This document shows, piece after piece, positions 817 to 39,340 of a stretch of 39,340 nucleotides of DNA. The translations under genes and the position numbers were made by a program. The notes under the pieces are model-generated. The model had not been told where the DNA came from. It saw nothing but the letters and a program-made list of their open reading frames with translations, and did no database searches. Every line of letters begins with the position of its first letter. The stretch's first letter is position 1. The stretch covers positions 1 to 39,340 of the IMG/VR virus record IMGVR_UViG_3300010883_000106; one strand, given 5' to 3'. This stretch comes from a virus.

Positions 817-835
817 GTTTATCTTTTACTTTTTT

Positions 836-4759: not shown

Positions 4760-4778
4760 TATTTAAGTTTCAATTTTA

Positions 4779-4788
4779 TTATTTATTT
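4779..4788 (-). promoter_or_regulatory. Variant late-promoter-like element AAATAAATAA
   Basis: One mismatch to the NAATATATAA motif, 19 nt before the ATG at 4759, the same spacing as the exact copies. It overlaps the 3' end of the upstream 704-aa gene. Confidence 0.35.
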
Positions 4789-6897: not shown

Positions 6898-6917
6898 TTT
6901 TAGCTTTTAATTATTTT

Positions 6918-7565: not shown

Positions 7566-7570
7566 TTTGT

Positions 7571-10500
7571 TTAATTTATTTTATTTTTAATTTGTTTTAT
7601 ATTTAAGATATTTCTACTCTTTTTATATTTATTCCCATTAGTATCAGTAAGTTCTAGCGTTATTGCGTACTTTCCTGGTTCTTTAAAAAGGTATGTCAAA
7701 TATTTACTTTCAAAATATATATCTGCCACTGATGAGTCAGTAGTATTAGAGATAGTCCATTTAGGTTCTGCCTTACCAACTATCCTACATTTATTGTATA
7801 CAAACATTGCCCATGTCATTGGTGGCAACACCTTTCCATCATTAATAAATTTAGCAGTATTCCATGTTGGGTTATTTGATATGCTTTGCCCAGATTTGTA
7901 AATTCTGCTATCACAAGCACCCGCGCCAGTTGCATCACTGCATATTCTATTACCATTTTCATCTACTATGTCAACGGATGTAAAATCTCCATACACTCCA
8001 TAATATCTAGATACTGCCTGCACAAATATTTCATCACTAGCAGCATTCATTACTAAATTATATACATACTTGTTAATAATAGGATTGCTGCTTAGGTTAA
8101 GTATAGCTACTGCTTCACTTAATGTATCGACAGTAGGACCAAAATATTCTGTACCTGCTATGCCATTTTTATCAACTATTTTTAAATAGCTAACAGGTTG
8201 CATTTCATCAAATTGGAAAAAAGCCGGAGAGTCACCAGTTGTTAATGTCATGTCCCACCATAAATGATAAGCATTATCCCAATTGCTAGATTTAGAATTT
8301 AAATTCTTCCATTGGTATGGGCCGCTAAAACTAGCATTTCCGTTGTTCTGATAATTCATTAATTGAAAATCAGTGTTAGTTCCTATTCCAAAAGTATTTA
8401 AGATTGCGTTAACTCTATCTAATGATTCATATAAACTTGGACTCTCATCATCCCAAGTAACAGACGGTTCGATAGGTAAATCCCATAGAGCTCCATAATC
8501 ATTCCAAATATAACTTCCTTCATTGTTCCAGGTGTAAGTTAACTTTCTTGACTGGTACCACCCAGAATATTCTACTTCTCTTTCATCAACGCAAATGGCC
8601 GATGTTTTAACTGAAGATGATATACTATTATATACATCAAATAATTTCATTTCAACATTATAATCTCCAATGTATGGTAGAGTTATAGGATAAGTTCCGT
8701 ATGTACCAATTGCACCTCTTACTTTAAAATAATATGCAGGAGAAATGCCTGGTGTTGCATCTTTATAAACAGTCCACTCAATTTCTGTAAAATTACCAGA
8801 CCCTATGCCATCCCATGTAAATAAAGTTTCACCAGCTAGTTGATTTGTTGTAAACTGACCTCCTGTACTTCTAGGATAATTTCCAGCACTTGCTAAAGTC
8901 ACAGTAGCTTTAAATCTAAAACCGTCATTACCATAAGATCGAATACATGGCCCAATATCATTCGTTACTTGTGACCAATCAAACCACAACCAAGGATCTG
9001 TTTGATTTGTTTTTAATAATGCTATTTGATTATACAGTGAAGTGGTTACTGATTGAACAGTGTCACCAATTGCTACTGTGTGAGTAGCTCCAGTATTTGT
9101 TGCAGTATCTGTTAATGCGTAAATGTCTCCTACTTCTATACCTTGTATATTAAAGTCAAAAGTAAAGAAATCATTAGCATTATTTAAATCATCCCACGTG
9201 CTATCCACGGCATCCCATGTTATATTATTAAAGCTATCATTAGTTAAAGTTATTAAAGCGCCAGACTTAACACCTGGTTGGTCTGGTAAACTTTTTGAAG
9301 ATTCTCCTTCTACAAAACCTGCTTGAGTTCTATTTAAGTTAGGTGCATACCTTGAAAAGTAAGCAGCATATACTCCAGCAACATCAGCAATAGTTATGTC
9401 TGCACCATCTTGTAAAGTACCTAATACTGAATTAGTATCTGGCCCTATTGGTGGAGCAGGCAAAGCTTGACCTGGTGTGTAAGGTCCCATTATCATATTT
9501 TGGCCAACAGCGGTAGTTCCGGCTGCAAGTGGAGCAACGTAAGCATTACAGAAATTTATGATAGCACCTGAATGAGCAGGGGTAACTCCTACGTATGCAG
9601 CTTCTTTTAAACAGAAAGTATCAAAATCTCTAAGATCTTCTAAATATGCACAACCTGTTGGTGATACTTTAAAATCTGTATTTATACCAACCTGGAGTGT
9701 ATTTGTATCATTCCTACTAATTGTGTTGGTTACTTCTAATAAACCAAAGTAATCACCCTCTGCTGTAATATCTTTAATATGAGCGTTAAGTGGAAGGTAT
9801 TCTTTTTCTAATTTTCTTTTTAAACCAAACAGTTTAATTAAGACTTCTTCTATAGTAAAATCCTGGACTTCTTCTGTCTTTGGTAAATCCTCATCAGTAA
9901 AACTATTCGGAGTAATTTTATTAATCCTATAAATAAGACTAAACATGCTAGTCTTTCTAAAGTTTTTATTTGGTAAAGTTATACTCTTATCATCAAACTC
10001 AACAAGAGGAGAAAACAAATCTACTGTATTACTTTGGATATACTTTCCAAACTGTGGAGAATTTGCATTTACATTTTTCCAAAACTCTTTAACCTTTAAA
10101 GTATTATAACCAAAAAACTTAATAGCATTTATCAAACCTCTATAAGAACCAATGAAAGGGTAAATATTACTACCTTCCATCATAATTTCCTTACGCTTAA
10201 GATTTATCTCTACAAAATCAGGTAATGCTTCTTTTAGATTAGTATCTCTAAATATTGTACTGTCTGATGCTATAACATTATAACCCATGTTCTGAGTCAT
10301 AGTTCTTAATCTTTCATCTTCCTCAATACTCTCAGCCCATACTGTAAATTCTGCAATCACAGTGTTGGTACACTTATCAGTAATTTCTAAAGTTCTCTTA
10401 TATGTATTTTCGTCAGCAGAAGAAAACGCTATATTAATTTGTAAAGCAACCGACCGCACTCTACTTGTAATAATATATCCATCACTATCAACAGTTTGCC

Positions 10501-10912
10501 CGTCTGTATAGTCAACAGGAATACTAAGTTTTGTATACTTTACTAAAGGCGGCCCATCAGGTTCTTGTACCAATGCAGATTGAGTACCTGTGTTAAAGTC
10601 TTTATCAAATTGAAAAAGAAATAACTCAGTAGGTGTTTCTGTTTTCCATTCTGCTTCCCAATCGCAACTGCTTTCGCCAGTAGGATCTCCTGTAGCTCCA
10701 TCTGAATACCCATGAGGATAACCATACTGAAAGGAACCATTTGAAGAATCAATTAGTTTTTGTAGAATAAATAATTGTCCTACTTCAAATAAATCAATAG
10801 AAACTTGGGGTAGGAAAATGTCACCAGTCCACTTATCTGCAGTGGTGTCATAATTCATATTGTAGTTCTTACCTTCTTTATCAAAAAAGTATAGATGTTG
10901 CCAACGATTCAC
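7571..10912 (-). CDS. Large baseplate protein, gp7-like position (1113 aa)
   Basis: A 1113-aa protein, close in length to T4 gp7 (about 1030 aa), two genes downstream of the gp6-like wedge gene as gp7 follows gp6 in T4. The N-terminus (MNRWQHLYFFDKEGKNYN) and a Lys/Phe-rich region near 240-400 precede many Trp-rich beta segments. Around 690-770 there is an Ig-like stretch (TLPYIGDYNVEMKLFDVYN), and the last ~60 residues (FKEPGKYAITLELTDTNG) look like a PKD-type fold. The wedge role is inferred from size and synteny; the beta-sandwich modules are seen in the sequence and could serve in assembly or host contact. The gene ends 6 nt before the 215-aa gene. Confidence 0.72.
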   Translation of the reverse strand: MNRWQHLYFFDKEGKNYNMNYDTTADKWTGDIFLPQVSIDLFEVGQLFILQKLIDSSNGSFQYGYPHGYSDGATGDPTGESSCDWEAEWKTETPTELFLFQFDKDFNTGTQSALVQEPDGPPLVKYTKLSIPVDYTDGQTVDSDGYIITSRVRSVALQINIAFSSADENTYKRTLEITDKCTNTVIAEFTVWAESIEEDERLRTMTQNMGYNVIASDSTIFRDTNLKEALPDFVEINLKRKEIMMEGSNIYPFIGSYRGLINAIKFFGYNTLKVKEFWKNVNANSPQFGKYIQSNTVDLFSPLVEFDDKSITLPNKNFRKTSMFSLIYRINKITPNSFTDEDLPKTEEVQDFTIEEVLIKLFGLKRKLEKEYLPLNAHIKDITAEGDYFGLLEVTNTISRNDTNTLQVGINTDFKVSPTGCAYLEDLRDFDTFCLKEAAYVGVTPAHSGAIINFCNAYVAPLAAGTTAVGQNMIMGPYTPGQALPAPPIGPDTNSVLGTLQDGADITIADVAGVYAAYFSRYAPNLNRTQAGFVEGESSKSLPDQPGVKSGALITLTNDSFNNITWDAVDSTWDDLNNANDFFTFDFNIQGIEVGDIYALTDTATNTGATHTVAIGDTVQSVTTSLYNQIALLKTNQTDPWLWFDWSQVTNDIGPCIRSYGNDGFRFKATVTLASAGNYPRSTGGQFTTNQLAGETLFTWDGIGSGNFTEIEWTVYKDATPGISPAYYFKVRGAIGTYGTYPITLPYIGDYNVEMKLFDVYNSISSSVKTSAICVDEREVEYSGWYQSRKLTYTWNNEGSYIWNDYGALWDLPIEPSVTWDDESPSLYESLDRVNAILNTFGIGTNTDFQLMNYQNNGNASFSGPYQWKNLNSKSSNWDNAYHLWWDMTLTTGDSPAFFQFDEMQPVSYLKIVDKNGIAGTEYFGPTVDTLSEAVAILNLSSNPIINKYVYNLVMNAASDEIFVQAVSRYYGVYGDFTSVDIVDENGNRICSDATGAGACDSRIYKSGQSISNNPTWNTAKFINDGKVLPPMTWAMFVYNKCRIVGKAEPKWTISNTTDSSVADIYFESKYLTYLFKEPGKYAITLELTDTNGNKYKKSRNILNIKQIKNKIN

Positions 10913-10919
10913 TATCTTA

Positions 10920-11189
10920 TTAGTTTATTTTTTGATACCACTTAGGTACTGCAAAGTTATAAAAAATTCTTACGTACTTAACCTTATTTATATAAAACAC
11001 CATGATAGGCGTTAGATAATCTTCCAAGAATTTTTTAATATGTGTATTACCAAACATATATGTAGACATCGTGTTATTCAATAAATTCTTAGAATAATCA
11101 TATCCTGTATTCTTTAGCTCCCAGCCCTCTTCATATGTAGCTCTATATAAACTTGGATAGCCAGTATTAGTGTCTTTAACTGTTGCCAT
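10920..11189 (-). CDS. Small conserved virion-module protein (89 aa)
   Basis: An 89-residue protein rich in Tyr, Lys and Asn, lying 7 nt upstream of the 1113-aa gene and 10 nt downstream of the gp6-like gene. The tight spacing suggests co-translation and a small baseplate component or assembly factor. No signal peptide; the hydrophobic patch near residue 62 (PIMVFYINKVKYVRIFYNFA) is too polar for a confident membrane helix. I do not recognise the family. Confidence 0.65.
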   Translation of the reverse strand: MATVKDTNTGYPSLYRATYEEGWELKNTGYDYSKNLLNNTMSTYMFGNTHIKKFLEDYLTPIMVFYINKVKYVRIFYNFAVPKWYQKIN

Positions 11190-11199
11190 AATTATTTTC

Positions 11200-13053
11200 C
11201 TAATTGTTCAATTGCTCAATAGCAGGTGTACCTTGTAATCTCCCGGTATTTAAACCAGCAGAATTTGCACCAGTTGCTATTGTTGTGCCTCTACTTCGTT
11301 GTGTAGCGTTATAACGTTCTTGTTGTATTTTATTATAAAGATTATTTTGAATAGCTTCTTTATAAAATATATTAAGTGAACTAATTTTATTACCTTCTGG
11401 TATTGGCTCAAAGTAAGTTCCATTCCTATCTTTCCAACCACCTCTAATAATAGCCAATTCATTATTTTCAATTATTACATCTCCAAAACTGTCTAATCCT
11501 AATTGTGGATCTTCATCAGTCTTTAAAACAATTTTTTTGTTTTCTATTAATACTCTTTGATCAGTTATAGGATCTGTTCCATAAACAGGAATAAAATAAA
11601 AACCATCTCTGATAGCTTGTTCATTTTGTTCTGATATAAAAAATATGTTTACAGAATCAATGCCTTCAACATTCTCAACTATTGAAATAAGATCTGAGCG
11701 TGGTATTCTATCTCTTCTATTTATATTTAAGAAATACTCATTTAAATTTTTTCTTATCGCAACTCTTATTTCATCTTTATCAAAATCTTCAAAATATCTA
11801 ATTACAACATTTAATGCATACTTGCGAATAACAGGTTCTACAATCCTAGTTTCTGCTGTGACAACTTGTCTTCCACTTTTATTTAATATTTCATAAGTCA
11901 TTGCTTTCTCGTCAGCTGTCATTGAAAATTCTACTTGAGGTATGCTGAAATAATCTAAGTCACTAGTTAACTTCTTTTTTACATTAGGAATTAAAAATAA
12001 GTAAATAATATTGTCATCATCTAAGTATTCATCATTCTTTGTATTATAAGCATCTATAAACGACCAAAAATCATACTTACTTAAATAGTAAATATAATTG
12101 TTAGGATTTGCTAATACAAATGAATTACTTTGGTATGGTGCAATTAATCTAGTAAAATTAGGATCTTCTGAATCTGAACCAAACATTGGGTTTCTTGTAA
12201 TGTTAATTGCAAGTATTTCGTTTAAGTCTGCTTCCTGGCCAGTTGAGTCGGTACCTGGTGTAGAAAACTTTATGTCTAATTGTTTACCTCCAATATTTCC
12301 AGCGTTACCTCTAGTCTTTATGTAAGTAACTCTAATACGTGAACCTAATGCAGGTGGCAGTCCAAATTGATTATTCCCAAAGAATATACTTAATCCACCA
12401 TTTACACTAGTTTTGAGCATCACAGTTCTTTCATCATTATTCATATCATACAATGAATCTACTTTTTTCCATAATTCACCATCAACATAAACTTCTGCTA
12501 AGTATTGGTCAGTAGGATCCTTTGTTGCTAAGTTATAACTTTGTAATGGAGTTCCTGAACCTGTAAAAATTTGTTCGTCTCTTTCACCTTGTACTATTTC
12601 AACATTAACAAACGCCTTTGTTGTTTTGTCTAATCTGATAAAGTCACTATCAAACTTTAAAAAGTATGTCAAACCATTTTGTCCTATTTCAAGACTAGCT
12701 CCGTTTACAATTTGTACATAGTCACCATTAAGAAGGGTAGACGCACTCGTGTTAAGTCTTAATCCAATAATACCTCTTGCTGATATACCCCGTGTAGGGT
12801 CATGCCCAGTCAGTCTGGATAAACCGTAGATAGACTCAATGTTTCTGGCTCTAGAAATATTTAGTTCTGTTAATGCTGCTTCAATATAAAAGAATATCAT
12901 TTCACCTAAGTTAACAACCACTGTTAGTATTTGTCCAAATGGCGAGGCAGGTGTAAATGTCTCAATTGCTTGGTCATAGGTACGCTGCAGATATTCGAAT
13001 GAATCTTCAAATAACTCCGATGCTTTTAATCTTGTTTTACTAAAAAATGACAT
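11200..13053 (-). CDS. Baseplate wedge protein gp6-like (baseplate J family)
   Basis: A 617-aa protein of the size of T4 gp6 (660 aa). The N-terminus (KTRLKASELFEDSFEYLQRTY) is followed by a helical segment and the SIYGLSRLTGHDPTRG region. This precedes a beta-rich part (ISARGIIGLRLN, then SRIRVTYIKTRGNAGNIGG) typical of baseplate J/gp6 proteins. A later section (VIRYFEDFDKDEIRVAIRKN, then RIPRSDLISIVENVEGIDSV) matches the conserved C-terminal module in which repeated alpha/beta domains contact neighbouring wedges. It follows gp25 directly, as in many contractile-tailed phages and injection systems. In the virion it would form the ring of the baseplate wedges. The last residues (Gly/Thr/Asn-rich) look disordered. 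Confidence 0.88.
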   Translation of the reverse strand: MSFFSKTRLKASELFEDSFEYLQRTYDQAIETFTPASPFGQILTVVVNLGEMIFFYIEAALTELNISRARNIESIYGLSRLTGHDPTRGISARGIIGLRLNTSASTLLNGDYVQIVNGASLEIGQNGLTYFLKFDSDFIRLDKTTKAFVNVEIVQGERDEQIFTGSGTPLQSYNLATKDPTDQYLAEVYVDGELWKKVDSLYDMNNDERTVMLKTSVNGGLSIFFGNNQFGLPPALGSRIRVTYIKTRGNAGNIGGKQLDIKFSTPGTDSTGQEADLNEILAINITRNPMFGSDSEDPNFTRLIAPYQSNSFVLANPNNYIYYLSKYDFWSFIDAYNTKNDEYLDDDNIIYLFLIPNVKKKLTSDLDYFSIPQVEFSMTADEKAMTYEILNKSGRQVVTAETRIVEPVIRKYALNVVIRYFEDFDKDEIRVAIRKNLNEYFLNINRRDRIPRSDLISIVENVEGIDSVNIFFISEQNEQAIRDGFYFIPVYGTDPITDQRVLIENKKIVLKTDEDPQLGLDSFGDVIIENNELAIIRGGWKDRNGTYFEPIPEGNKISSLNIFYKEAIQNNLYNKIQQERYNATQRSRGTTIATGANSAGLNTGRLQGTPAIEQLNN

Positions 13054-13066
13054 TCAATTTATTTTT

Positions 13067-13429
13067 TTAAAAAAGAGCTCCTAGCACTCTTTGTTCATCT
13101 ACAAAGATGTCCACAAAAGCACCATTGCGTTCTTCTGTTGAAAAGAACCTTACATTAGTCTTAATAGCAAAACCACCAATCTGCGGTAAACAATACGCTG
13201 TGATCTGGCTATTAATAGTATTTTGTATAACTGACTCACTTAACACCAATGAAAAGATTAAATTATCTAAATTAGCACCCATACCAGGTGCGCCTAATAC
13301 ATCTCCCCTGGTTGTAAATAAACAGTTTTCTATCTTTAAAATTAGTTGAGATAAAGTATCACTTACTTCTAATGTATCACTGCTGTAGTTATTATCTTCT
13401 ATACTCCGGCTATACATATCTCTTATCAT
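13067..13429 (-). CDS. Baseplate wedge protein gp25-like (GPW/gp25 family)
   Basis: A 120-aa protein of the usual gp25/gpW length. The segment LILKIENCLFTTRGDVLGAP followed by GMGANLDNLIF is the family hallmark, in which a short helix leads to a turn and then the sheath-contacting region. The C-terminal NVRFFSTEERNGAFVDIFVD forms the conserved last strands. In contractile tails gp25 joins the first sheath ring to the baseplate and pairs with gp6, which is the next gene 13 nt downstream. The T4 protein was once called lysozyme-like, but the family is structural. A late-promoter-like motif lies 18 nt before the ATG. Confidence 0.9.
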   Translation of the reverse strand: MIRDMYSRSIEDNNYSSDTLEVSDTLSQLILKIENCLFTTRGDVLGAPGMGANLDNLIFSLVLSESVIQNTINSQITAYCLPQIGGFAIKTNVRFFSTEERNGAFVDIFVDEQRVLGALF

Positions 13430-13447
13430 GCTAAACTATTATTTTTA

Positions 13448-13457
13448 TTATATATTC
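13448..13457 (-). promoter_or_regulatory. Late-promoter-like element GAATATATAA
   Basis: Exact motif copy 18 nt upstream of the gp25-like start codon, followed by an AT-rich leader without a Shine-Dalgarno sequence. It probably drives gp25, gp6 and downstream wedge genes. Confidence 0.6.
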
Positions 13458-13488
13458 TCTTTAACTTTAATAGCTTTTATAATATAAG

Positions 13489-14352
13489 TTAGCCTGTGAA
13501 AAAGTAATCCGTACCTTCGTCTGCTTTTATTTCTTCAACTACCCTATCTACTTCTTCTCTACCTTCCGACGATATCATGTCATAATTAATAGTAATGTTA
13601 CCTGGAAGATTAAATGAAAAGGTTCCTAAGATTCGAGCTAATTGAATTTTAGCTTGTCCTATACAATATCTAACAAATGCTTCATCTTGAAATAGGGCGC
13701 AATCTGGAATAGTAGAAAAGATTTCAAATATACATGCTTGTGTTGGTAACTCTCCTTGGAATCTAAACTTTCTAGTTAATCTATTATATGTATATGATAT
13801 TTGTGGCAATAGTGCTTGTCTGGCATTATCCATAAATAATGAGTTAACTACATAGTACATTAAATTTTCACTACCAAGACCTGCTCCATAAACATCATCA
13901 TAGATAAACTTGTCAATTGAAAAGTCAACATCCCCTGCATTAAAACTGTTACTGCCGAATCCACCGTCTTCTCCAGAAAAACCACCAATCTCAAACACAG
14001 CATTTACTGAATATACTCTTGTAGGCATTTGTACAATTCCTCTAGGATTTGATATTTGATTTTTGTTAGTTATAACTTCATTAGCTTGCCCTGTGCCCTT
14101 TGGTACACCTTGTAAAAAGTCTTGTTTTAGTACAGCCCCAGCAGGTAAAGCAATATACATCTGCTCAACACTATCTTCGTATATTTTATAGAAGTAACCC
14201 TTTGCTCTTTGAATGATATGAGCTAATTCCTTTTTAGGAACCGTAAAGGGTATTTGACAAGCAATAGTTAGATCATCATTAATTTCTTTTATTAACGCGT
14301 CTAAGCATGCTGCTTCTTCTGGATCATTACAATAACTATTAGTGTTAGCCAT
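13489..14352 (-). CDS. Virion structural protein, family not identified (287 aa)
   Basis: A soluble 287-aa protein. The N-terminal ~75 residues are helical (DALIKEINDDLTIACQIPFT, then KELAHIIQRAKGYFYKIYED). A Gly/Asn/Phe-rich middle (IGGFSGEDGGFGSNSF) and a C-terminal helical part (RYCIGQAKIQLARILGTFSF) follow. The start 'helix, proline, helix with aromatic residues' resembles neck or tail-completion proteins of marine myoviruses, but that is only an impression. It lies 9 nt downstream of the amidoligase gene and 59 nt upstream of gp25, which makes a tail, neck or baseplate role likely. An internal acidic C-terminus (VVEEIKADEGTDYFFTG) ends the protein. Confidence 0.68.
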   Translation of the reverse strand: MANTNSYCNDPEEAACLDALIKEINDDLTIACQIPFTVPKKELAHIIQRAKGYFYKIYEDSVEQMYIALPAGAVLKQDFLQGVPKGTGQANEVITNKNQISNPRGIVQMPTRVYSVNAVFEIGGFSGEDGGFGSNSFNAGDVDFSIDKFIYDDVYGAGLGSENLMYYVVNSLFMDNARQALLPQISYTYNRLTRKFRFQGELPTQACIFEIFSTIPDCALFQDEAFVRYCIGQAKIQLARILGTFSFNLPGNITINYDMISSEGREEVDRVVEEIKADEGTDYFFTG

Positions 14353-14361
14353 AATATTATT

Positions 14362-15654
14362 TTATATTTTTTCTATTTCAATAATTTCAGTATTTTCAAA
14401 TTGTGCAAGCTCAGTAGCTCTACCCTTTCTAAATATACCTCCGTCCATTGTCCCACTGAAAACACCTCTTTGTCCAAACACATAGGAATCTTTGCAATTT
14501 ACATTTCTACTTACGTATGAATCTTCTATTTTAGAATCGGCAACATCAGTAGAACCAAATAAGTTACTTTCAAAAACAGAAGAGTTAATTAGTTCAGAAC
14601 TGAATACATCGCATTCTATAATGTTACCTTGAATTTTAGAATCAACAACATCAATTCCTTTTATTTCAAAACATTTCATTAACTCTGCATTTTTTAATTG
14701 CATCTTGCCAGTATCAGAATCATAATTAATCAAACCTTCCTTAAGTCCTGCTTTGGTTAATAGTTCAAATATCTTTTCCCTCATCTTAGGATAATAGGTC
14801 TCTACTATTTGATCATAAGTCTTAAGATCTACCATTAACTTAACCTTAGGAAATTTTCTTTTGAATATACTGTAGGATTTGTAAGATTCTACAATACCTT
14901 TATGCTTTTCTAGTATGACGTCTAATTTCTTAATATCTTCTTCATTATAAATTGGGTCAACTAAACTTTCATATAGAGATACAACAAAATGTTCTGTCAT
15001 ATTCATTATAGTGTTATATTTCTTTTCATAATCTTTACCACCTAAGTATCTAAACTCAATGTAGTTTTTTGGTATTTTAGAAAAGTTTACACCATAATAT
15101 TTTTCAGACACAAACATATAGTTCTTCCATGAAATTCTTTCAGGAGAAGGCTGTGTCATACCACTCAATGGCACGATAAATTTTATAGATTTAGCATAAA
15201 CAGAATCTCTCCTATTAGGGAAAGCTTCATATACTGCATTCTCATTAAAGTTAAGAACAAACTTACCAATATCTAGAGTTGATACATTTGTAGGCGTTCC
15301 TAGTTTCTTTCCATCAAATGCCACATTTACATGGATAGAACACCTCTCATTAGTGGACCCGTTTTCACGGATCCACTTCAAGGTTTTTGCAATAATAAGT
15401 TTTGATTCAACAAACGGCATTGGCCCAGTCACTAGCTCAATCATTCCAGATCCACCAGAATTGTCAGGCTCTAGTTTAAATATTTCATCGGTAGGCGCAA
15501 AATCACTATGTGCTTTTTCTTCGACTCTTATTTGCTTATTTAGCGTCTGTGATATGCCGCGCTTAACTTCGTCAATTCCTTCATTGGCAAAGAATTCAAA
15601 CTCTAATCCAATCTTTGAAGAATATATGGCATTTAGCTGTTCGTTAGTGTACAT
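14362..15654 (-). CDS. Amidoligase-family enzyme with C-terminal repeat domain
   Basis: A 430-aa protein whose first ~240 residues carry the amidoligase (COOH-NH2 ligase, glutamine-synthetase-like fold) signature in order: G-L-E-F-E (16-20), I-E-L-V-T-G-P (72-78), C-S-I-H-V-N-V (105-111), N-R-R-D-S (147-151) and Y-I-E-F-R-Y-L (198-204). These Glu, His and Arg residues correspond to the metal/ATP-binding set of the family, which makes amide or peptide bonds using ATP. Residues ~255-325 are helical. Residues ~330-412 form short D/S/V-rich repeats (DVVDSKIQGNIIECDVFSSE is one part) like a pentapeptide or beta-helix fold. It lies between an S1-like gene and structural genes. The substrate is unknown: a virion protein, wall peptide or host protein are all possible. 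A late-promoter-like motif lies 16 nt upstream. Confidence 0.8.
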   Translation of the reverse strand: MYTNEQLNAIYSSKIGLEFEFFANEGIDEVKRGISQTLNKQIRVEEKAHSDFAPTDEIFKLEPDNSGGSGMIELVTGPMPFVESKLIIAKTLKWIRENGSTNERCSIHVNVAFDGKKLGTPTNVSTLDIGKFVLNFNENAVYEAFPNRRDSVYAKSIKFIVPLSGMTQPSPERISWKNYMFVSEKYYGVNFSKIPKNYIEFRYLGGKDYEKKYNTIMNMTEHFVVSLYESLVDPIYNEEDIKKLDVILEKHKGIVESYKSYSIFKRKFPKVKLMVDLKTYDQIVETYYPKMREKIFELLTKAGLKEGLINYDSDTGKMQLKNAELMKCFEIKGIDVVDSKIQGNIIECDVFSSELINSSVFESNLFGSTDVADSKIEDSYVSRNVNCKDSYVFGQRGVFSGTMDGGIFRKGRATELAQFENTEIIEIEKI

Positions 15655-15670
15655 GTATTTCCTGATTTGT

Positions 15671-15680
15671 TTATATATTC
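15671..15680 (-). promoter_or_regulatory. Late-promoter-like element GAATATATAA
   Basis: Exact motif copy 16 nt before the amidoligase start, in the 42-bp gap after the S1-like gene. A short AGGAAA stretch closer to the ATG could act as a weak Shine-Dalgarno site, unusual in this window. Confidence 0.55.
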
Positions 15681-15696
15681 CAAACCAGAAACATGG

Positions 15697-16836
15697 CTAT
15701 GCTAGGTTCATTGTAATCTTTCGATCACTAACATTAACACTACCAATTTTAACATTGATAATATCGCCTCTGGTCAAAACTGTTTCTTTTAATTTAGATT
15801 TATGAATTAAACCACTTATACCTTTTTCTAATTCAACAAAGGCGCCATAAGAAGTTAGTTTTGTTACAGTTCCTTCAACAGTCATCATAGGAGTATATTT
15901 TTCTGTAATGCCATCCCATAAGTCAATCTTAGGACCTAGCTGACTTAATATTATTTTCTTGTTAGATATAATTTCTTTAGCCCAGAATGTTATTTCATCA
16001 CCAGGTTTAATGCTTCCACTATCAAAAGCAGCTAAAGTACTTTCATCTAATTCTGCTTTAGGAATCAATCCTGTTAAGCATTCCTCAAATTGGGCAAAAA
16101 TACCAAACTTAGTTGTTCCTGTTACAAAACCAGCTCTTTGTTCTTTGATGTCTTCTGTTAACTCGTCAACTCTAGTAGGAATCATTGTTTTTAAATACTC
16201 TCTGTGTGATACGACGATAGTATCTTTTTCTGTTGAGTATGTGATTGGCATTACAATAATTTCCTTTCCTACTAATGAAGTAAAGTCATGAAGTTTATTT
16301 AACCCTCCTAATGAACCTGGCATAAAACATTTAATGCCTGCAACATCTACCCAATAGCCACCATGAATAAGTTCCTTAACAAGACCAGTATAACCAATGT
16401 TTGTATTACCGATAGCTTCTTTTATTTCCTTCATCTTAACATCTAAGATTGCCTCACCAATAGATGCGGTAATATCTCCATTCTTAGCCGTCTTAATTTT
16501 TACATCTATTTCCATCCCAACAGATAATTGATCAACTATATAATCAGGTTCTTTTATTAGAGAACAACATGGAGTAAATTTAGATTGAGTGTCTATTATT
16601 GCATTAGTCCTATCTTCTGAAATAAATGTAATTTTTCCGCTAGTTGTAAATGGTACTTGGCTTTCTGTTAACTGAGCTTTTTTTATTACTTCCTTTGAAA
16701 GATTATACATTGCCAAAACTTCAGGTGCATAAGGTTCATTGCACATTAACTTAGTTCCTTCTGGTACTTGAACTTGTACTACTTTTGTATCAAACGGATC
16801 ATCACTTAATTGGATGGTAATTTCTTGTGTTATCAT
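15697..16836 (-). CDS. Ribosomal protein S1-like protein with four S1 (OB-fold) domains
   Basis: A 379-aa protein that resolves into four S1-type RNA-binding domains at about 65-127, 146-210, 233-300 and 318-378. Domain 2 has the pattern of bS1 repeats (GLVKELIHGGYWVDVAGIKC, then FMPGSLGG, then IVVSHREYLK). Domains 3 and 4 show KFGIFAQFEECLTGLIPKAE and TSYGAFVELEKGISGLIHKS. Cellular bS1 has about six domains and over 550 residues, so this is a shorter, phage-type version; the first ~60 residues are not S1-like. The protein probably binds single-stranded RNA and may recruit phage messages to ribosomes; the alternative is an RNA-binding role in packaging or transcription. It lies within the tail operon, upstream of the amidoligase, behind a late-promoter-like motif. 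Confidence 0.85.
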   Translation of the reverse strand: MITQEITIQLSDDPFDTKVVQVQVPEGTKLMCNEPYAPEVLAMYNLSKEVIKKAQLTESQVPFTTSGKITFISEDRTNAIIDTQSKFTPCCSLIKEPDYIVDQLSVGMEIDVKIKTAKNGDITASIGEAILDVKMKEIKEAIGNTNIGYTGLVKELIHGGYWVDVAGIKCFMPGSLGGLNKLHDFTSLVGKEIIVMPITYSTEKDTIVVSHREYLKTMIPTRVDELTEDIKEQRAGFVTGTTKFGIFAQFEECLTGLIPKAELDESTLAAFDSGSIKPGDEITFWAKEIISNKKIILSQLGPKIDLWDGITEKYTPMMTVEGTVTKLTSYGAFVELEKGISGLIHKSKLKETVLTRGDIINVKIGSVNVSDRKITMNLA

Positions 16837-16866
16837 TATTTTTTTTTAAAAGGTTTGTTATATGTA

Positions 16867-16876
16867 TTATATATTT
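16867..16876 (-). promoter_or_regulatory. Late-promoter-like element AAATATATAA
   Basis: Exact motif copy, 30 nt before the S1-like start codon, so the leader here is longer than at the other copies. Confidence 0.5.
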
Positions 16877-16886
16877 ACTATGTATA

Positions 16887-17213
16887 TTATGTAATCCCAA
16901 CGCCAGGAGCTCCTGTGCCACTTCCTGATGATGTAGTAGGTCCTACACCAGTTCCTGGACCAACAGCACTTGCAGTAATAGTATTTGCTACTCCGGTAGT
17001 TGTGACAGTAGTTGTTATTGTTGCTGTTTTCAAATAATCATCAATTGCAGCTGCTGCTAATGGTGCAAAAACTCCGGCCGCCTCTTTAACTGCAGTCTCG
17101 AATACACTTTCTCCATCATTTGCTGTAGTTTGAGACTGAAGAATAAATTCTTTCATTGCATCTGTGAATGCTTTATTCATATCTGCCTCCAAAACACTCT
17201 TTACTAATGCCAT
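16887..17213 (-). CDS. Small virion-module protein with Thr/Gly-rich tail (108 aa)
   Basis: A 108-residue protein. The first ~62 residues are helical and Ala-rich (MNKAFTDAMKEFILQSQ, then FAPLAAAAIDDYLKTA). The remaining ~45 residues are low-complexity Thr/Gly/Ser/Pro (TTTVTTTGVANTITASAVG, then GPTTSSGSGTGAPGVGIT). It is encoded 35 nt downstream of the gp5-like spike gene and has its own late-promoter-like motif 18 nt before the ATG. It may be a spike- or hub-associated minor virion protein. I do not recognise a named family and see no PAAR motif. Confidence 0.65.
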   Translation of the reverse strand: MALVKSVLEADMNKAFTDAMKEFILQSQTTANDGESVFETAVKEAAGVFAPLAAAAIDDYLKTATITTTVTTTGVANTITASAVGPGTGVGPTTSSGSGTGAPGVGIT

Positions 17214-17231
17214 ATTAATCTAATTTATAGT

Positions 17232-17241
17232 TTATATATTA
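17232..17241 (-). promoter_or_regulatory. Late-promoter-like element TAATATATAA
   Basis: Exact motif copy 18 nt upstream of the 108-aa gene, in the 35-bp gap after the gp5-like gene. Confidence 0.55.
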
Positions 17242-17248
17242 AGGCTAA

Positions 17249-18085
17249 TTAATCAGTAGTATTCTTAGTACTCAATGAAGGCTTAACTATTGCCGAGGGT
17301 GGACCAGTTGGTGCTCCTAAATTTCCTACATGAACGTGTGCATCAAATATCCCTGCAAACGTGTCACCTTTTATTACTGCCTCAGTTGCTTGTTCACCAA
17401 GTTTTATTCTTGGGCTATTAATATGAGTTTCTCCTGTTGCATTAACATTAGCATTTGCACAATTTATGTTAACAGTTCCATCGTTTACCATTTCTATTGA
17501 ATCGCCATTTGCGTTTAAAACTTCAACAGAGTTATCAGGTTTAATATTAATTGTGGTTGGTCCAGTTGATGTAGTGTAATCAATCATCAAACCTTTTTCT
17601 TCTGTAAAGAAAACTTTAACATGTTCACCTTCCCTATCATTTGTTACCTCAGTTCCATTTTCTCCACCTGTTAATCCAAATGCAGTATCATAAATAAGTA
17701 CATGTGAATTTTGGTAAGATGATTCTATCTCAGCCTTAGTTTCATCAGAGGGATAAATGTTCTCATGATAAATCGGTTGGTACAAATTTCCATTGTCAAA
17801 AGTCATCCTAAGTACAGATCCTAATTTTGGAATTTCAAATTTGCCGCTACCTGTCGCAGAGCCACCATACATTAACTGATGAGGTCTTGACCAGGGTAAT
17901 GCAGGTGTTGGAATCTTGTATGCACTAGTAGGATCGTTAGGATCTACTCTTTCATCCATCTTTCCATATATTCTTATCTTACATCTTCCTTCAAAGATAT
18001 CATCGGCAGTATCTTCTACTATCCCAACCCATTGGGTAGTTCTTAAATCATCTGCGTTAAAATTTGTTGGATTTACCTTTCCCAT
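17249..18085 (-). CDS. Baseplate central spike protein, gp5/VgrG OB-fold type
   Basis: A 278-aa protein. Residues ~15-110 read as the gp5/VgrG OB-fold: WVGIVEDTADDIFEGRCKIR, then PWSRPHQLMYGG, and FEIPKLGSVLRMTFDNGNLY with YQPIYHENIY. Residues ~165-245 are short alternating beta repeats rich in Asn/Thr/Ile (TTINIKPDNSVEVLNANGDS), fitting a trimeric beta-helical spike. H250 and H252 (DAHVHVGN) lie near the tip, a position where related spikes carry a His-x-His. T4 gp5 also contains a lysozyme domain; none is present here. The start codon overlaps the stop of the upstream tube-like gene by one base (TAATG). It would sit under the gp27-like hub encoded nearby. Confidence 0.85.
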   Translation of the reverse strand: MGKVNPTNFNADDLRTTQWVGIVEDTADDIFEGRCKIRIYGKMDERVDPNDPTSAYKIPTPALPWSRPHQLMYGGSATGSGKFEIPKLGSVLRMTFDNGNLYQPIYHENIYPSDETKAEIESSYQNSHVLIYDTAFGLTGGENGTEVTNDREGEHVKVFFTEEKGLMIDYTTSTGPTTINIKPDNSVEVLNANGDSIEMVNDGTVNINCANANVNATGETHINSPRIKLGEQATEAVIKGDTFAGIFDAHVHVGNLGAPTGPPSAIVKPSLSTKNTTD

Positions 18086-19509
18086 TATTCAAAAATATTT
18101 GTTGATTCTAATCCACCGTTATCTTGAGCTGGTCCTGACGGTCCAAATGCATTAGTTGAATTTAATCCACCTAAAGAATTATTAGACGGATCAAATGCTT
18201 GGCTTGTAACAATACTTCTAGTGGCAGCAACTGCATCACCTAGCGGGTTATCTCCTAGACTTATGTTTCTAATGGCATTTCCAAATGTTTCTAATACTCC
18301 ACTTTGAACTGCTGCTCCTGCTGCTGCATTTATTAAGGTTTGTGGATTTGCCAATGTTCCTAGTAATTCATTTCTTAAACCAAAGACATTACCTAAAGTA
18401 ATATCCTGTATAGCAGCATTCACTTTTGATTTTATTTTATTAATTGCTCCTGCTGCCATGCTGCCTGCTTGATCTTTTGCAACTGATTTAAGCTTATCGC
18501 CTAAGTTACCTGATGTTGCAGCTCCTTGCCGTACACCATCGTCTAATCCAAAGTCAAGACCAGAAAAAGAAGATTTTAATTGCATATCTCCATAGCCAAA
18601 TTTAATTTCAGTTACAGCAACTTCTCCACCAACATTAGTTACAGTTTCAAATGCCTTTCCGCTCGCAGCAACATCCCAAACACAATCCGTAAATTTAAAT
18701 CTAACATTAGATGTATTTTCATTTACGTATGTAGACGTCTCTGCTTCTGTTACAGACGGATTGAGCGCTCTTAGCCAATTTCGTGTAGTTTTAAACTTTC
18801 TTATCTCATGAACATTTACATATACATCAAACCGCATTAAGTTTTTTGGCAGAACAAATCTTTTCATTCTAGTATCATACACTGCCATTCGGTATAAACT
18901 AAACAATGCAGTTATTTTTAAATCTATAGCTTCTAAACAACCAATGGAAATACCCTCAGCGCCAGTGGTTCCTGTATAAGGATCTTCTGCGAAATCTGTA
19001 GATTTATTCCATCCTTCTATTAAACCAGCAATAGTTTGAAAATAATAAGGTCTTGTCGCAACTATATCTTGTATACCTTGTATGAATGCTCTAAGAAATT
19101 TTGCACGGTCTCCTTCTCCAATTCTAAGTAAATAACCTATAGCAGATACACCAGAAGAATATCCAGGCTCAGGTGTTGGCTGTGACTCTAATGCCTGTGC
19201 GCCACCTAAATTTGAAATACCCACAGCATCTCCTAAGTCGCTAACTGACCCTGGTATAACTGACTGAGGATCAACAGCCTTTGCACCACTGTTACCCTTT
19301 GTAGCATCCATAAACAGTGGAGAGGTAATATCAAACATTAAATCAAAACCTAGATATGTAGGATCATCTAATGAGGTAACACCATTAGTACCAACTGTTA
19401 CTGGGCCTCCATTGTTTACAAACCTTTTTGCAAAGCCATAGCTTGATGGGAATGATTTACCACCTAGTGCAGAACTAAAGGGTCCGAGTATACTTGTTAA
19501 ATCTGCCAT
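18085..19509 (-). CDS. Baseplate tube-like structural protein (474 aa)
   Basis: A 474-aa protein. Residues ~125-320 hold a tail-tube-like section: a helical segment (KFLRAFIQGIQDIVATRPYY), then FVLPKNLMRFDVYVNVHEIR, then VRFKFTDCVWDVAASG and ITEIKFGYG-type strands. This pattern is found in baseplate proteins that start the inner tube (gp48/gp54 type). The C-terminal ~140 residues are Ala/Gly/Asn-rich and probably flexible. It sits between the gp27-like hub (24 nt upstream) and the gp5-like spike (1-nt overlap downstream), consistent with a hub or tube-initiation role. Assignment to gp48 or gp54 specifically is not possible by eye. Confidence 0.7.
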   Translation of the reverse strand: MADLTSILGPFSSALGGKSFPSSYGFAKRFVNNGGPVTVGTNGVTSLDDPTYLGFDLMFDITSPLFMDATKGNSGAKAVDPQSVIPGSVSDLGDAVGISNLGGAQALESQPTPEPGYSSGVSAIGYLLRIGEGDRAKFLRAFIQGIQDIVATRPYYFQTIAGLIEGWNKSTDFAEDPYTGTTGAEGISIGCLEAIDLKITALFSLYRMAVYDTRMKRFVLPKNLMRFDVYVNVHEIRKFKTTRNWLRALNPSVTEAETSTYVNENTSNVRFKFTDCVWDVAASGKAFETVTNVGGEVAVTEIKFGYGDMQLKSSFSGLDFGLDDGVRQGAATSGNLGDKLKSVAKDQAGSMAAGAINKIKSKVNAAIQDITLGNVFGLRNELLGTLANPQTLINAAAGAAVQSGVLETFGNAIRNISLGDNPLGDAVAATRSIVTSQAFDPSNNSLGGLNSTNAFGPSGPAQDNGGLESTNIFE

Positions 19510-19533
19510 CTTATATTCTTCTTTTTATATTTA

Positions 19534-21021
19534 TTAGGTAGTTGGTGTAAATTCTCTACGCTGTAATCTTAATCTCATTCTTATTGGACCTGGATTAGTA
19601 TACAACCATTCAACACCAGTTATAACATAAAATCCAGATAAGTATTCGTTAACTATACCATTTTCACTGTTTGTATCATCAGTATTATCTGGTCTTGTTT
19701 GTGGTTTTCCTTCTGCTCCACTTATATCAGCAACCGAGGGTGCAGCAAGTACATCCTTTATTGTAGGGGCAAACTCTAATATTTGACAGTATATTCTACT
19801 ATACCGAACAAGTGCAGGATTAAGTGTATCTAATTCTATAACCATGCCCATTTTATTTATCTCGGTTATATTTTGATAATTAAGAACTGTGCTATATTGA
19901 TATTGTGCATGAACGTTATCTCCTTGTGTACCTAAGTACTTATATTTAACTTGTTCATTTCTTGGTCCTTCAACTTGGCCGTCTATTAATCTACCCTTTG
20001 TTGCCGGTATCATACCAGGTGTGTTATTAGTTAATGGATCAACAAATTCACTTACCCATTCTCTTGTTTCTAAATCCCAGTACTGTGTATATCTTTTATA
20101 GCCGTTTGCTTTACTTATTTCACCGCTCTTATTGACCATTTGGTATTTTGAAATATATCTAGCGCCGCCTTGGAGTTGAACCATATTACTTAAATAGTTT
20201 GGAGTATTACCTTCTTGACCTATTGCACCATTAGCACCCATAGTATCTCCTGCGTTTTGGCTAAACCCTAAACTTGCTTCAACTGCTCCTTCTTGACTAA
20301 ATAACCTATTAACATCAACCAATGTTAAGTAATAGTAAGGATCTATATAACTAGTAAAAAATGTATCGTCATTAAGATAACTATTTGCAACTATATCTTG
20401 AATCCAAGTTTCAGTAGTGTCATTAGGATTTGTCCATGTCATAAGATCATTTGTCTCTTCAACATTTGATGCAAACCCTAATTCCATTTTTTCTGCAATA
20501 TTTAATAAAGCATCCCAACTTGTAACTTCTTCTTCATATTCAACTGATTCTGCAAATAGCTTCGGTACAAACATTCTACCTGTTATAAGATATTCATTTG
20601 CACTTTCTCCTCCACCACCACCTACAGGTTTGCAATCAACTATGGTAAAATCTATTCTTACTGGTTTAAACGTAGTCTCATCACCTTGTGACCTGATGTT
20701 TAATTGTATAAGGTCCCCATCCTTTGGATAAAATCTTGCAGTAAACAATGCATCAGTGTCTGCAAACTGTATTCTACATGTAGGGTAAAACGTGTTATTC
20801 TTTAGTGAGAAAAGATTTAAGACATCACTCGGTACATCAAATCCATTAATTTTAATTTCAGGTACCAATTGCGAAAACTCAGAAGGTTTCTCTTTCATAG
20901 TTAACCCATCAGAATTTCCAGATCCACTTTCACGATCCAATATTTCTAAAGGATCTAGTTTAATGGCAGGTTCTAATACTGTTAATATGTTTCTTTCGAC
21001 TATACTTGGGGTTCCTGGCAT
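19534..21021 (-). CDS. Baseplate hub protein, gp27/gpD-like
   Basis: A 495-aa protein. Residues ~50-165 look like the first beta-barrel of hub proteins (PEIKINGFDVPSDVLNLFSL, then FYPTCRIQFADTDALF, then YPKDGDLIQLNIRSQGD). It is followed by a helical and aromatic part (TSWDALLNIAEKMELGF, then FTSYIDPYYYLTLVDVNRLF) characteristic of gp27/gpD-type proteins, and a C-terminal barrel ending in YVITGVEWLYTNPGPIRMRL. Such hubs form a trimer that links the tube to the spike. The LysM/gp53-like gene ends 2 nt upstream and the spike gene is two genes downstream, which strengthens the call. T4 gp27 is about 390 aa; this one is longer. Confidence 0.78.
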   Translation of the reverse strand: MPGTPSIVERNILTVLEPAIKLDPLEILDRESGSGNSDGLTMKEKPSEFSQLVPEIKINGFDVPSDVLNLFSLKNNTFYPTCRIQFADTDALFTARFYPKDGDLIQLNIRSQGDETTFKPVRIDFTIVDCKPVGGGGGESANEYLITGRMFVPKLFAESVEYEEEVTSWDALLNIAEKMELGFASNVEETNDLMTWTNPNDTTETWIQDIVANSYLNDDTFFTSYIDPYYYLTLVDVNRLFSQEGAVEASLGFSQNAGDTMGANGAIGQEGNTPNYLSNMVQLQGGARYISKYQMVNKSGEISKANGYKRYTQYWDLETREWVSEFVDPLTNNTPGMIPATKGRLIDGQVEGPRNEQVKYKYLGTQGDNVHAQYQYSTVLNYQNITEINKMGMVIELDTLNPALVRYSRIYCQILEFAPTIKDVLAAPSVADISGAEGKPQTRPDNTDDTNSENGIVNEYLSGFYVITGVEWLYTNPGPIRMRLRLQRREFTPTT

Positions 21022-21023
21022 AA

Positions 21024-21569
21024 TTATGATTCAGTGTTAGTGTTTGTTCTGGTTGGTAGGTTTGCACCTAGCAAAATCTTACCTCCTTTAAAGATCTTAG
21101 CCTCTTGTCCTTGCTGTAGCATATTTGGAGGAATAGGTGTTTTGACCCCGTTCTTCTTAGTCTTTGCCTTTTGTGTTAATCTCTGTAATCTTGATTGATC
21201 TTGTTCTCGTTGTCTATCCATGTTAACATATTGTGCTAATGTTTCACTTGGTCTTGATGCAGCATCAGGTCTTGAATAAACTAGATTCTCATCTTTAAGT
21301 TGGGGTATTGCTAAAATATCCCCTTCAGAAACTGAAAAGGGATTAAAGATATTATTTACAATACATATAGCATCAACGTATGCACCTGTACCAAAATACT
21401 GTTGCGATATTTTATCAATCCTACCTGCTTGGTCTACTGTAACATAATGCAATGCCTTTACGCCAAGTTCTCTTTTATAAGTAAATGATGGTGCAGACAA
21501 ATCAAAATACTGTTCTCCAGTTTTTTCAATTGTTAATCTGTTTTTTAGCTCTAATGATCTAATATTCAT
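21024..21569 (-). CDS. LysM-containing baseplate protein, gp53-like
   Basis: A 181-aa protein. Residues ~42-92 match a LysM-type module: VTVDQAGRIDKISQQYFGTG, then AYVDAICIVNNIFNPFSV and EGDILAIPQ. T4 gp53, a wedge protein, also contains a LysM-like fold and is of similar length (196 aa). The C-terminal ~85 residues are Gln/Arg/Lys-rich and likely extended. The gene is directly upstream of the gp27-like hub gene (2-nt gap). The alternative is a P2 gpX-like tail protein, which has the same small LysM fold; either way the role is structural rather than a secreted wall-binding protein, since there is no signal peptide. Confidence 0.75.
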   Translation of the reverse strand: MNIRSLELKNRLTIEKTGEQYFDLSAPSFTYKRELGVKALHYVTVDQAGRIDKISQQYFGTGAYVDAICIVNNIFNPFSVSEGDILAIPQLKDENLVYSRPDAASRPSETLAQYVNMDRQREQDQSRLQRLTQKAKTKKNGVKTPIPPNMLQQGQEAKIFKGGKILLGANLPTRTNTNTES

Positions 21570-33451: not shown

Positions 33452-34265
33452 TATGTTTATCTTTTATTTTTTGTAACATTGCTTTATCTTCATCATCAAA
33501 ATCGTTAGGAATAGTAACAGTGATTGATATAAGTAAGTCAGAAAACTTGCCTTCTTGTTGATACACTGGAAATCCTTTATCTTTAACTCTTAATACTTTA
33601 CCATGATCAGTCCCAGGTGGTATTGTAAAAGTTATAATTTTATTAAAACATTCAATAGATTCTTTGCCACCAAGTATTGCGTCAAATAGAGTAATGTTTT
33701 TAATTGTATGCAACCCTTGATTGTCTAAGAAAAAGTTGTTATTAGAAACTACTTCAACACTCATAATAAGGTCTCCGTTTAAGTCTTCAGTCTGGCCACG
33801 TTGACCTAAACCCTTTAACTTTAACTTTTGTCCATTTCTTACACCAGCTGGAATAGTTACTTTAATTGTCTTCATCCCAATCCTAACATCACGGCTTGTG
33901 CCATAATATGCATCAGTTAAATCTACTCTTAAAACACCGGTGGTATTTCTACCCTTTGAGTTAAAACCATACCTCTGATTAAACGCACCAGCAAAATGTT
34001 GATTATTTAATAAATCTTCAAATGCGCTATTTGTAAAGTCTCCACCAAAGCCCTGACCAAATGGGTTATTTCTTGCCTGATCAAACCTTGCTTTTTTGTT
34101 TGGGTCACTTAAAGTTTCGTATGCGTCTGCTATCTCTTTAAATTTTTCTTCATTACCTTTAGATTTATCTGGGTGATATTCTTTAGCTAAATTTCTATAT
34201 GCTTTTTTGATTACATCAGGTTGTGCAGTTTTATCTACACCTAATATTTGATATGGGTCTTTCAT
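33438..34265 (-). CDS. J-domain co-chaperone (DnaJ/CbpA type)
   Basis: A 275-aa DnaJ-family protein. The J-domain is at 1-70 with the invariant H31-P32-D33. A Gly/Phe-rich segment (NNPFGQGFGGDFTN) follows, then two C-terminal substrate-binding sub-domains at ~105-185 and ~190-265 (IKVTIPAGVRNGQKLKLKGL; GTDHGKVLRVKDKGFPVYQQ). There is no zinc-finger region, so it is of the CbpA (type II) class and slightly short. It would stimulate host or phage DnaK during replication or virion assembly. It overlaps the 94-aa gene (14 nt) and the membrane-protein gene upstream (4 nt). Confidence 0.9.
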   Translation of the reverse strand: MKDPYQILGVDKTAQPDVIKKAYRNLAKEYHPDKSKGNEEKFKEIADAYETLSDPNKKARFDQARNNPFGQGFGGDFTNSAFEDLLNNQHFAGAFNQRYGFNSKGRNTTGVLRVDLTDAYYGTSRDVRIGMKTIKVTIPAGVRNGQKLKLKGLGQRGQTEDLNGDLIMSVEVVSNNNFFLDNQGLHTIKNITLFDAILGGKESIECFNKIITFTIPPGTDHGKVLRVKDKGFPVYQQEGKFSDLLISITVTIPNDFDDEDKAMLQKIKDKHNEKR

Positions 34266-34606
34266 TTCCAGAGAATTTGTATAGCGATTAAAATAATTGA
34301 AATAAGTAGTGATATTATGGTCTTTGTATTAATACCTTCATCTAGAAAATACCAAGTCAAAAAAGTAAACGAAATCATGCCTAAACCAAACCCGATAAAT
34401 CTTCCAGGCCATAAGAGCCCATTATAATACTCTACCATATGCTTAGAACCATAAATTAGTATGTAACTGATTGTAGTACCAAATATAATTGAAACTGCAA
34501 TAGGATTCCTTTTAAAAATCGGCCATACAAATTGACCATTAGTTTGAAACCATATAGCAGACTGTCCAGCAAAAAAAAGTAAGCATGCTATTATTAATTT
34601 ATTCAT
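34262..34606 (-). CDS. Four-helix membrane protein of unknown function
   Basis: A 114-aa protein with about four transmembrane segments: ~2-20, ~34-52, ~68-86 and ~94-112. A conserved-looking loop reads GLLWPGRFIGFGLGMISFTF. I recall similar short four-helix proteins (with GQSAIWFQTNGQF and LLWPGR) from environmental phage and bacterial sequences, with unknown function. A holin would be compatible with size and topology, but no lysis gene is adjacent; the lysin lies 2 kb away. It overlaps the J-domain gene by 4 nt. Confidence 0.72.
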   Translation of the reverse strand: MNKLIIACLLFFAGQSAIWFQTNGQFVWPIFKRNPIAVSIIFGTTISYILIYGSKHMVEYYNGLLWPGRFIGFGLGMISFTFLTWYFLDEGINTKTIISLLISIILIAIQILWK

Positions 34607-38497: not shown

Positions 38498-38758
38498 TTA
38501 TATTTTTTCTAATAAATCCCTTTCTATGTTAAGGTCATAATACGATCCCATTCCAGCAGGTCCTTTGTTAAGTGTACTGTCTGGTCTTACTTGGCATGTG
38601 TTTATAGTATTTACTGATCTGATAATCGTGCCTTCACGTTCTGTATCTCTAAATACTGGAAGTACAACTCCGTTTCTATCAGTTTTGCCTTCAGGATGTG
38701 GCACTGCTTTCATCTTGTGAATCCACTTAACTTTATCGCCTTCTTTAAAATTTTCCAT
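38498..38758 (-). CDS. Small beta-barrel-like protein (86 aa)
   Basis: An 86-aa protein beginning MENFKEGDKVKWIHKMKAVP. The GDKVKWIH start followed by TEREGTIIRSVNTINTCQVR resembles small SH3/KOW-like barrels found in many phage hypothetical proteins. A nucleic-acid-binding role is possible but not shown. The next upstream gene is 61 bp away. Confidence 0.6.
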   Translation of the reverse strand: MENFKEGDKVKWIHKMKAVPHPEGKTDRNGVVLPVFRDTEREGTIIRSVNTINTCQVRPDSTLNKGPAGMGSYYDLNIERDLLEKI

Positions 38759-38819: not shown

Positions 38820-39002
38820 CTATTTAAAAAATCCCATTAAAAATTTTACTATACACCACGGCCAGAGTGTAACCCAAAATAACCTATACCAATTAGTTGT
38901 ATTACTTTCATCATATTTACTAAGATAAATCATATACTCAAAAAGAGCTGACCATGCTACACCTATAAAAAAATAAATTAGTACTATATTAAAATATTCC
39001 AT
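38820..39002 (-). CDS. Small membrane protein (60 aa)
   Basis: A 60-aa protein with two likely membrane helices: ~5-24 (NIVLIYFFIGVAWSALFEYM) and ~40-58 (LFWVTLWPWCIVKFLMGFF), separated by a polar loop. Trp/Phe-rich. It lies 6 nt downstream of the gene with the gliding-motility domain. Function unknown; size and topology would suit a holin or an exclusion protein, without further support. Confidence 0.58.
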   Translation of the reverse strand: MEYFNIVLIYFFIGVAWSALFEYMIYLSKYDESNTTNWYRLFWVTLWPWCIVKFLMGFFK

Positions 39003-39008: not shown

Positions 39009-39340
39009 TTATTTAATTAAACTAATTGTTCCTGTAATATTGTGAAGTACTTTATCTAATGTCCACACGTGGAGAAAATAAACATATATACCAACCGGAA
39101 CAACATTACCATTATGAGTACCATCCCACGCTGAGTTAATATCATCCGCTTCAAATAACAGAGTACCCCACCTATCATAAACCACAACATTATACTCATT
39201 AGTATCCGCGTTATGGATTATAGGTTTCCAAACATCATTTTTATAGTCACGATTTGGTGTAAATGCGTTTGGTATCCATACACCTGATGTAGGTGGAATT
39301 TTAATAATGGCAATCGTATCATCAATACAGCCGAATTCAC
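39009..39340 (-). CDS. Protein with gliding-motility-associated (type IX secretion) C-terminal domain, 5' part outside window
   Basis: The last 110 codons of a gene whose start is beyond the right edge. The translation contains VWIPNAFTPNRDYKNDVWKP, then EYNVVVYDRWGTLLFEADDI, then NSAWDGTHNGNVVPVGIYVY, with the ending HNITGTISLIK. This is the CHU_C/gliding-motility-associated C-terminal domain: IPNAFTPN..., YDRWG, WDGT..G..VP.G.Y. In Bacteroidota it marks surface and secreted proteins for the type IX secretion system. The usual NGDGxND loop reads NRDYKND here, a deviation. The stop codon is 6 nt before a small membrane-protein gene in the phage orientation, so it belongs to a phage operon. 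Confidence 0.9.
   Translation of the reverse strand, partial: EFGCIDDTIAIIKIPPTSGVWIPNAFTPNRDYKNDVWKPIIHNADTNEYNVVVYDRWGTLLFEADDINSAWDGTHNGNVVPVGIYVYFLHVWTLDKVLHNITGTISLIK

Follow-up and report, generated by a model that had tools for sequence, protein, structure and literature searches.

The right end of the contig

The stretch of DNA analysed here, the window, is an entire IMG/VR record of 39,340 bases. At its right end lies the 3' end of an incomplete gene on the minus strand (39009..39340), visible as an open frame of 109 amino acids (39009-39338) that has no start codon and runs off the contig end, the 5' part of this terminal gene being located beyond it. The encoded fragment ends in a type B sorting domain of the type IX secretion system (T9SS), also called CHU_C. 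Its stop codon (39009-39011) is followed after six nucleotides by the start of the next gene (TAA AACAAT ATG), and the 6-nt gap to a small phage gene reported in an earlier note on this DNA is correct. This neighbour (38820..39002, minus strand) encodes a small membrane-like protein of 60 residues and anchors the locus together with a second gene (38498..38758, minus strand) for a conserved phage protein of 86 residues (..VPHPEGKTDR..VLPVFRD..). Further inside the contig, another small membrane-like protein, of 114 residues (34262..34606, minus strand), has homologues located 3-7 kb from CHU_C genes in three other loci (L032, L034 and L023). Two further minus-strand genes may be mentioned. The first (36265-36792) combines a signal-peptide-like start with a lysozyme-like SLT domain and likely encodes an exported cell-wall enzyme. 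The second (33438-34265) encodes a DnaJ-like chaperone, a gene likewise present in several other huge phages.

The contig is indeed a piece of phage DNA. A contractile-tail and baseplate module covers positions 1..21569 (minus strand), and 13 of its proteins, from tail and baseplate, are encoded in the same order as in LR756500 (462 kb), at 27–49% identity. This colinearity bears out the initial view that the gene with the domain belongs to the genome of a tailed phage. In IMG/VR, the baseplate-J-like protein (11200-13053) has 168 relatives, of which the top 80 share 55–87% identity with it. The closest long relative is a contig of 182 kb, against 39 kb for the window record. More distant matches were found in other huge-phage genomes, in Lak phages, and in Tenacibaculum phage pT24 and Flavobacterium phage MaF61, which points to a host among the Bacteroidota. 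In the study of Al-Shayeb et al., the genomes exceeding 634 kb (the Mahaphage clade) were predicted to infect Bacteroidetes (PMC7162821). From these similarities, the window appears to be a 39-kb fragment of a huge tailed Bacteroidota phage related to LR756500.

A type B sorting domain at the C-terminus

In Bacteroidota, a C-terminal address label routes proteins through the T9SS onto the cell surface. The label of type B (TIGR04131/PF13585) occupies residues 22-108 of the 109-residue fragment (39015..39275, minus strand), that is, the very C-terminus, as established from profile scores and an AlphaFold model. TIGR04131 scored 63.3 bits for a cut-off of 35 (E 1.8e-17, residues 22-108, profile positions 3-84 of 85) and PF13585 scored 62.2 bits for a cut-off of 27 (E 5e-17, residues 22-91), so that both profile searches uphold the proposed C-terminal CHU_C domain. 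PF13585 gave zero matches across 14 control genomes. In the alignment, the conserved PNxFTP, NxDxxND, RWG and WDG motifs, the Y and the final G are all present, and the window domain belongs to TIGR04131 by every membership test made. The AlphaFold model, obtained with 49 related sequences as input, has a mean pLDDT of 91 and shows four main strands forming a sheet (residues 44-54, 60-64, 83-93 and 98-107), in agreement with the prediction of a four-strand sheet for type B CTDs, five motifs of which are each needed for secretion (PMC12618676). The closest viral structure matches are phage proteins, several of which are named 'gliding motility-associated C-terminal domain'. The same fold, with TM-scores of 0.68–0.81, is found in proteins of uncultured Caudovirales (A0A6J5NJX2 and A0A6J5L8Z9) and of Virus NIOZ-UU157 (A0A7S9STS8); these carry the domain as a database annotation, and we found no study of them. 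Fold matches in the PDB were generic beta-sandwiches and were set aside. PHROGs holds no family for the 109-residue fragment.

The short segment ahead of the domain (39276..39338, minus strand; EFGCIDDTIAIIKIPPTSGVW) is too short to score, and its resemblance to relatives points to a putative last strand of a PKD/Ig-like repeat followed by a linker. The same segment is similar in L003, L004, L015, L022 and L034, and in three of these (L003, L004 and L034) a PKD_4 domain precedes CHU_C. Judged from its 21 residues, we infer that the pre-domain part (EFGCIDDTIAIIKI) looks like the end of such a repeat. The entire protein, with its N-terminus beyond the contig end, is likely a T9SS cargo.

The conserved loop of the domain, NRDYKND in the window, had been described as altered. 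Loop statistics drawn from 68 bacterial and 65 phage domains show conservation of N/D at position +1, D/N at +3, N at +6 and mostly D/E/Q/N at +7. The window keeps all of these, and NRDYKND retains the pattern N-x-D-x-x-N-D. Glycines are replaced at +2 (Gly in 40 of the 68 bacterial copies) and at +4 (33 of 68), two positions at which they are often absent in bacteria too. The NRD triplet is shared with L084, L089 and the bacterial L225, TRD is found in L059, and L050 also has Y at +4. This is ordinary variation across both sets of domains, and we therefore dropped any special meaning of the loop change. In locus L002, the string PNRDYKND is a chance match within a helicase.

The domain gene fills an exchangeable slot

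The 60-residue gene was first seen in the same position in four relatives. A targeted scan of IMG/VR was then made with the 86-residue anchor: the single sequence (38498-38758) gave no matches, and an alignment of five gave 43 loci (36–61% identity), 42 of which have the 60-residue gene in the same position. Just upstream of it, these relatives carry a thioredoxin gene (32 loci), a gene of 56 residues (7 loci) or neither (3 loci), and CHU_C is directly upstream in none of the 42. In the four relatives examined in detail, the 60-residue gene is overlapped by its upstream neighbour or lies within a few bases of the end of the latter. The CHU_C gene is thus shown to be an exchangeable accessory in an operon of small genes, filling a slot that holds a thioredoxin or a small gene in relatives, never CHU_C. 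It would also be inessential, since TIGR04131 is absent from all 80 closest phage relatives, most of which are fragments ending short of the locus. In loci L293-L326, thioredoxin occupies the slot taken by CHU_C in the window, upstream of the homologue of 38820-39002. In G077 and its relatives, a sugar-phosphate isomerase-like SIS gene is found in this slot.

A more distant contig, L034, contains homologues of two window genes, one with 42% identity and the other, the 60-residue gene, with 28% (E 0.005). Both are located within 6 kb of a gene for a CHU_C protein of 1006 residues, and a CHU_C protein of 133 residues is encoded 2 kb further.

The gene order at this point bears on the possibility of an assembly artefact, in which the last ~338 bases would be host DNA misjoined to the phage contig. 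A 29-mer spanning the junction is present in no other IMG/VR contig, so that a second, independent copy of these 338 bases is lacking; the domain occupies this slot in no relative; and the bacterial domain L202 lies nearest to the window domain in a poorly resolved tree, a weakly supported pairing taken as a hint only. However, such a join would have fallen exactly between a stop codon and the next start codon, with the spacing of an operon (6 nt) and on the same strand, which is also exactly the point where natural gene swapping has occurred in relatives. GC content is within the local range, such genes are present in other huge phages, and L034, which has two neighbours of the window locus, encodes the domain twice. 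Synteny is conserved up to 39002. The chimeric join named earlier as a refuting condition is made improbable by this synteny and by the operon-like spacing, even with the last 338 bases lacking a second copy, and we regard an artefact as quite unlikely. The patchy presence of the gene and its bacterial-looking domain could also be those of a passenger, a recently gained piece of a host surface protein that is functionless now. Yet the frame is open to the stop codon, all conserved positions are kept, and intact genes of this type are kept in many phage lineages, which makes a mere passenger rather improbable.

Related proteins in other phages carry export signals

Seven phage CHU_C domains, used as queries against IMG/VR, gave 367 loci with a related domain. 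Full-length versions in phages of ~640 kb have 1670 residues (13 SprB repeats, PKD and CHU_C) and 1205 residues, and large phage CHU_C proteins bear SprB, PKD and Ig-like repeats. Other proteins are minimal, having 116–133 residues with a signal peptide and little beyond the domain (LR756502, LR745206 and L034). By a crude rule, a signal peptide is present in 63 of the 74 complete CHU_C proteins from phages, as against 91 of the 1141 proteins encoded nearby, and 9 of the 11 proteins failing the rule still show one on inspection. One record, MT839536 (L005), was left out of the phage count, its phage label being wrong: MltD and UvrA genes mark it as likely bacterial contamination.

Two families, of ~740 and ~190 residues, recur among the best 80 of the 367 loci. 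The ~740-residue family has a signal peptide, the motif ..YCPxLGPDQxLPCG.. and a type B domain, and was observed in about 47 of the 80 loci L013-L092; the member in the 635-kb phage LR745206 (25813-27963) is 55% identical over 98%. The ~190-residue gene is usually the last in a run of two to four genes for secreted proteins. In G014, G018 and G020, the run opens with a gene that ends in a type A domain (PF18962), above the cut-off only in G014.

Some ~740-residue genes adjoin genes for tail tube, tail sheath and baseplate-hub-like proteins, and a few members of the family have weak Hoc-like and tail-protein matches in PHROGs. These data could mean that the window gene encodes a virion protein, namely a tail fibre or decoration showing a host-like module, for instance to mimic a receptor or to be carried on the gliding surface. 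Nearly all complete relatives, however, have a Sec signal peptide, which is needless for virion parts assembled in the cytoplasm, and the window gene is located in a region of small genes, apart from the tail module. The receptor-mimicking virion domain put forward in the earlier note as one option loses ground in view of the export signals of the relatives, and we consider a virion protein unlikely. Its other option, type IX export through the machinery of the host, here of type B, is the best reading, in line with the signal peptides and the SprB, PKD and Ig-like repeats of the phage relatives.

Probable export through the host machinery

On this evidence, the product of the gene at the contig end is most probably a surface protein that a huge Bacteroidota phage exports by way of the T9SS and the shuttles of its host, although other readings keep a fair share of the probability. 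The protein would first undergo Sec export by means of an N-terminal signal peptide, expected in the part located beyond the contig end. As inferred from work on Flavobacterium johnsoniae, the type B domain would then be recognised by the SprA translocon and a PorP/SprF-type shuttle, both from the host, and the protein would end up anchored on the outer face of the infected cell. The phage thus probably displays a protein of its own on the cell that it infects. Reduced adsorption of competing phages or changed adhesion would be the most natural uses of such a protein, on a speculative basis; superinfection exclusion as its surface function is a guess.

Type B CTDs of F. johnsoniae depend on a PorP/SprF-like shuttle in addition to the T9SS translocon, and orphan type B substrates can be served by the same shuttle (PMC12618676). 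PorP-like proteins anchor type B cargo (PMC9143113). No PorP/SprF gene (PF11751) is encoded by the 46 phage records or the window (0/47), and 6/6 bacterial genomes have 5–17 copies each. No shuttle gene is located directly downstream of the window CHU_C gene, the neighbour being the 60-residue protein. We do not regard the lack of an sprF next to the gene as peculiar to phages: among 75 bacterial loci whose CTDs are close to this one, only 4 carry an sprF directly downstream. As orphans exist (PMC12618676) and so few bacterial loci have an adjacent shuttle, the latter is a common companion of type B cargo rather than a defining requirement. In the absence of a phage-encoded shuttle, the phage cargo would have to borrow that of the host.

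The main effect of the protein could also be that of a decoy, occupying the SprF-type shuttles or the SprA translocon of the host and lowering the display of adhesins that phages need. The minimal proteins of some huge phages, nearly just signal peptide and domain, and the lack of a phage-encoded shuttle would suit this idea, as would the resistance of F. columnare to phage V156 through mutations in gld/spr (T9SS/gliding) genes (PMC9233685), which implies that the surface built by the T9SS matters for phage entry and is also a hint as to the role of a displayed phage protein. The window fragment, on the other hand, seems to follow a repeat domain and is probably not a minimal protein, and we find a decoy very unlikely for this gene. 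Minimal type B proteins, possible shuttle decoys in their own right, are encoded in L011 (1486-1836, minus strand), L012 and L034 (11028-11429). Coming back to a displayed surface protein, we would extend it only tentatively to huge phages at large. Interchangeable type B (and type A) cargo, some of it nearly an export signal alone, might borrow or saturate host PorP/SprF, displace host adhesins and block competing phages, giving a huge-phage surface coat built via the host T9SS; we hold this wider scheme to be doubtful.

Comparison with known T9SS cargo

The window domain is the same as that of bacterial type B cargo such as SprB of F. johnsoniae and has the same terminal position, with repeats upstream in the phage relatives. 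In contrast to the cargo of Bacteroidota, it is phage-encoded and is not accompanied by a phage PorP/SprF shuttle. The profile of the phage domain also recognises the C-terminus of GhpA (E 1.4e-14), the Aureispira grappling hook protein (PDB 9flp), but GhpA is a bacterial surface protein of 5898 residues. Phage-encoded T9SS cargo is already known from Cryophage, from sorting-domain proteins of crAss-like phages and from the annotated phage proteins in UniProt. Cryophage, a 76-kb phage, has three type A cargo genes in variable genome islands, with the domains on enzymes or a PA14 protein and export presumed to use the host system (Bellas et al. 2020, PMC7468147). The window differs in being of type B, with a different shuttle class, and in being a fragment related to huge phages. 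Contigs of crAss-like phage cluster 2 also encode proteins with T9SS sorting domains, linked to BACON domains near head genes, the domain type and mechanism not being resolved in that study (PMC6949934).

The window gene is thus real and phage-encoded, and represents a type B form of a phenomenon already known. The type B label appears previously undescribed in huge phages: we found no description of such cargo in the full-text literature, a coverage from which subscription journals and preprints are largely missing. A single fragment is modest, and attention is due to the broader picture of huge phages that carry exchangeable genes for secreted cargo and no shuttle. If the proteins are exported, phages would commandeer a dedicated bacterial secretion machine and remodel the host surface with a label for which they have no shuttle. 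Shuttle specificity can be narrow, and export would provide a testable prediction of the host shuttle used by each phage. It would also relate gene swapping in phages to competition at the cell surface in a major phylum of bacteria from aquatic and gut habitats, and would give a handle on many unannotated secreted proteins of huge phages.

Type A domains also occur in huge phages. PF18962 matched 12 of 35 phage records, with scores exceeding the cut-off in 9; these matches include LR756501, LR756502, LR756504 and LR745206, and LR756500 has a weak one. In L044 (2875-10276), L041 (5608-10276) and L036 (5615-10276), the run of secreted-protein genes opens with a weak type A domain and ends with the ~190-residue type B protein, with signal-peptide proteins encoded in between.
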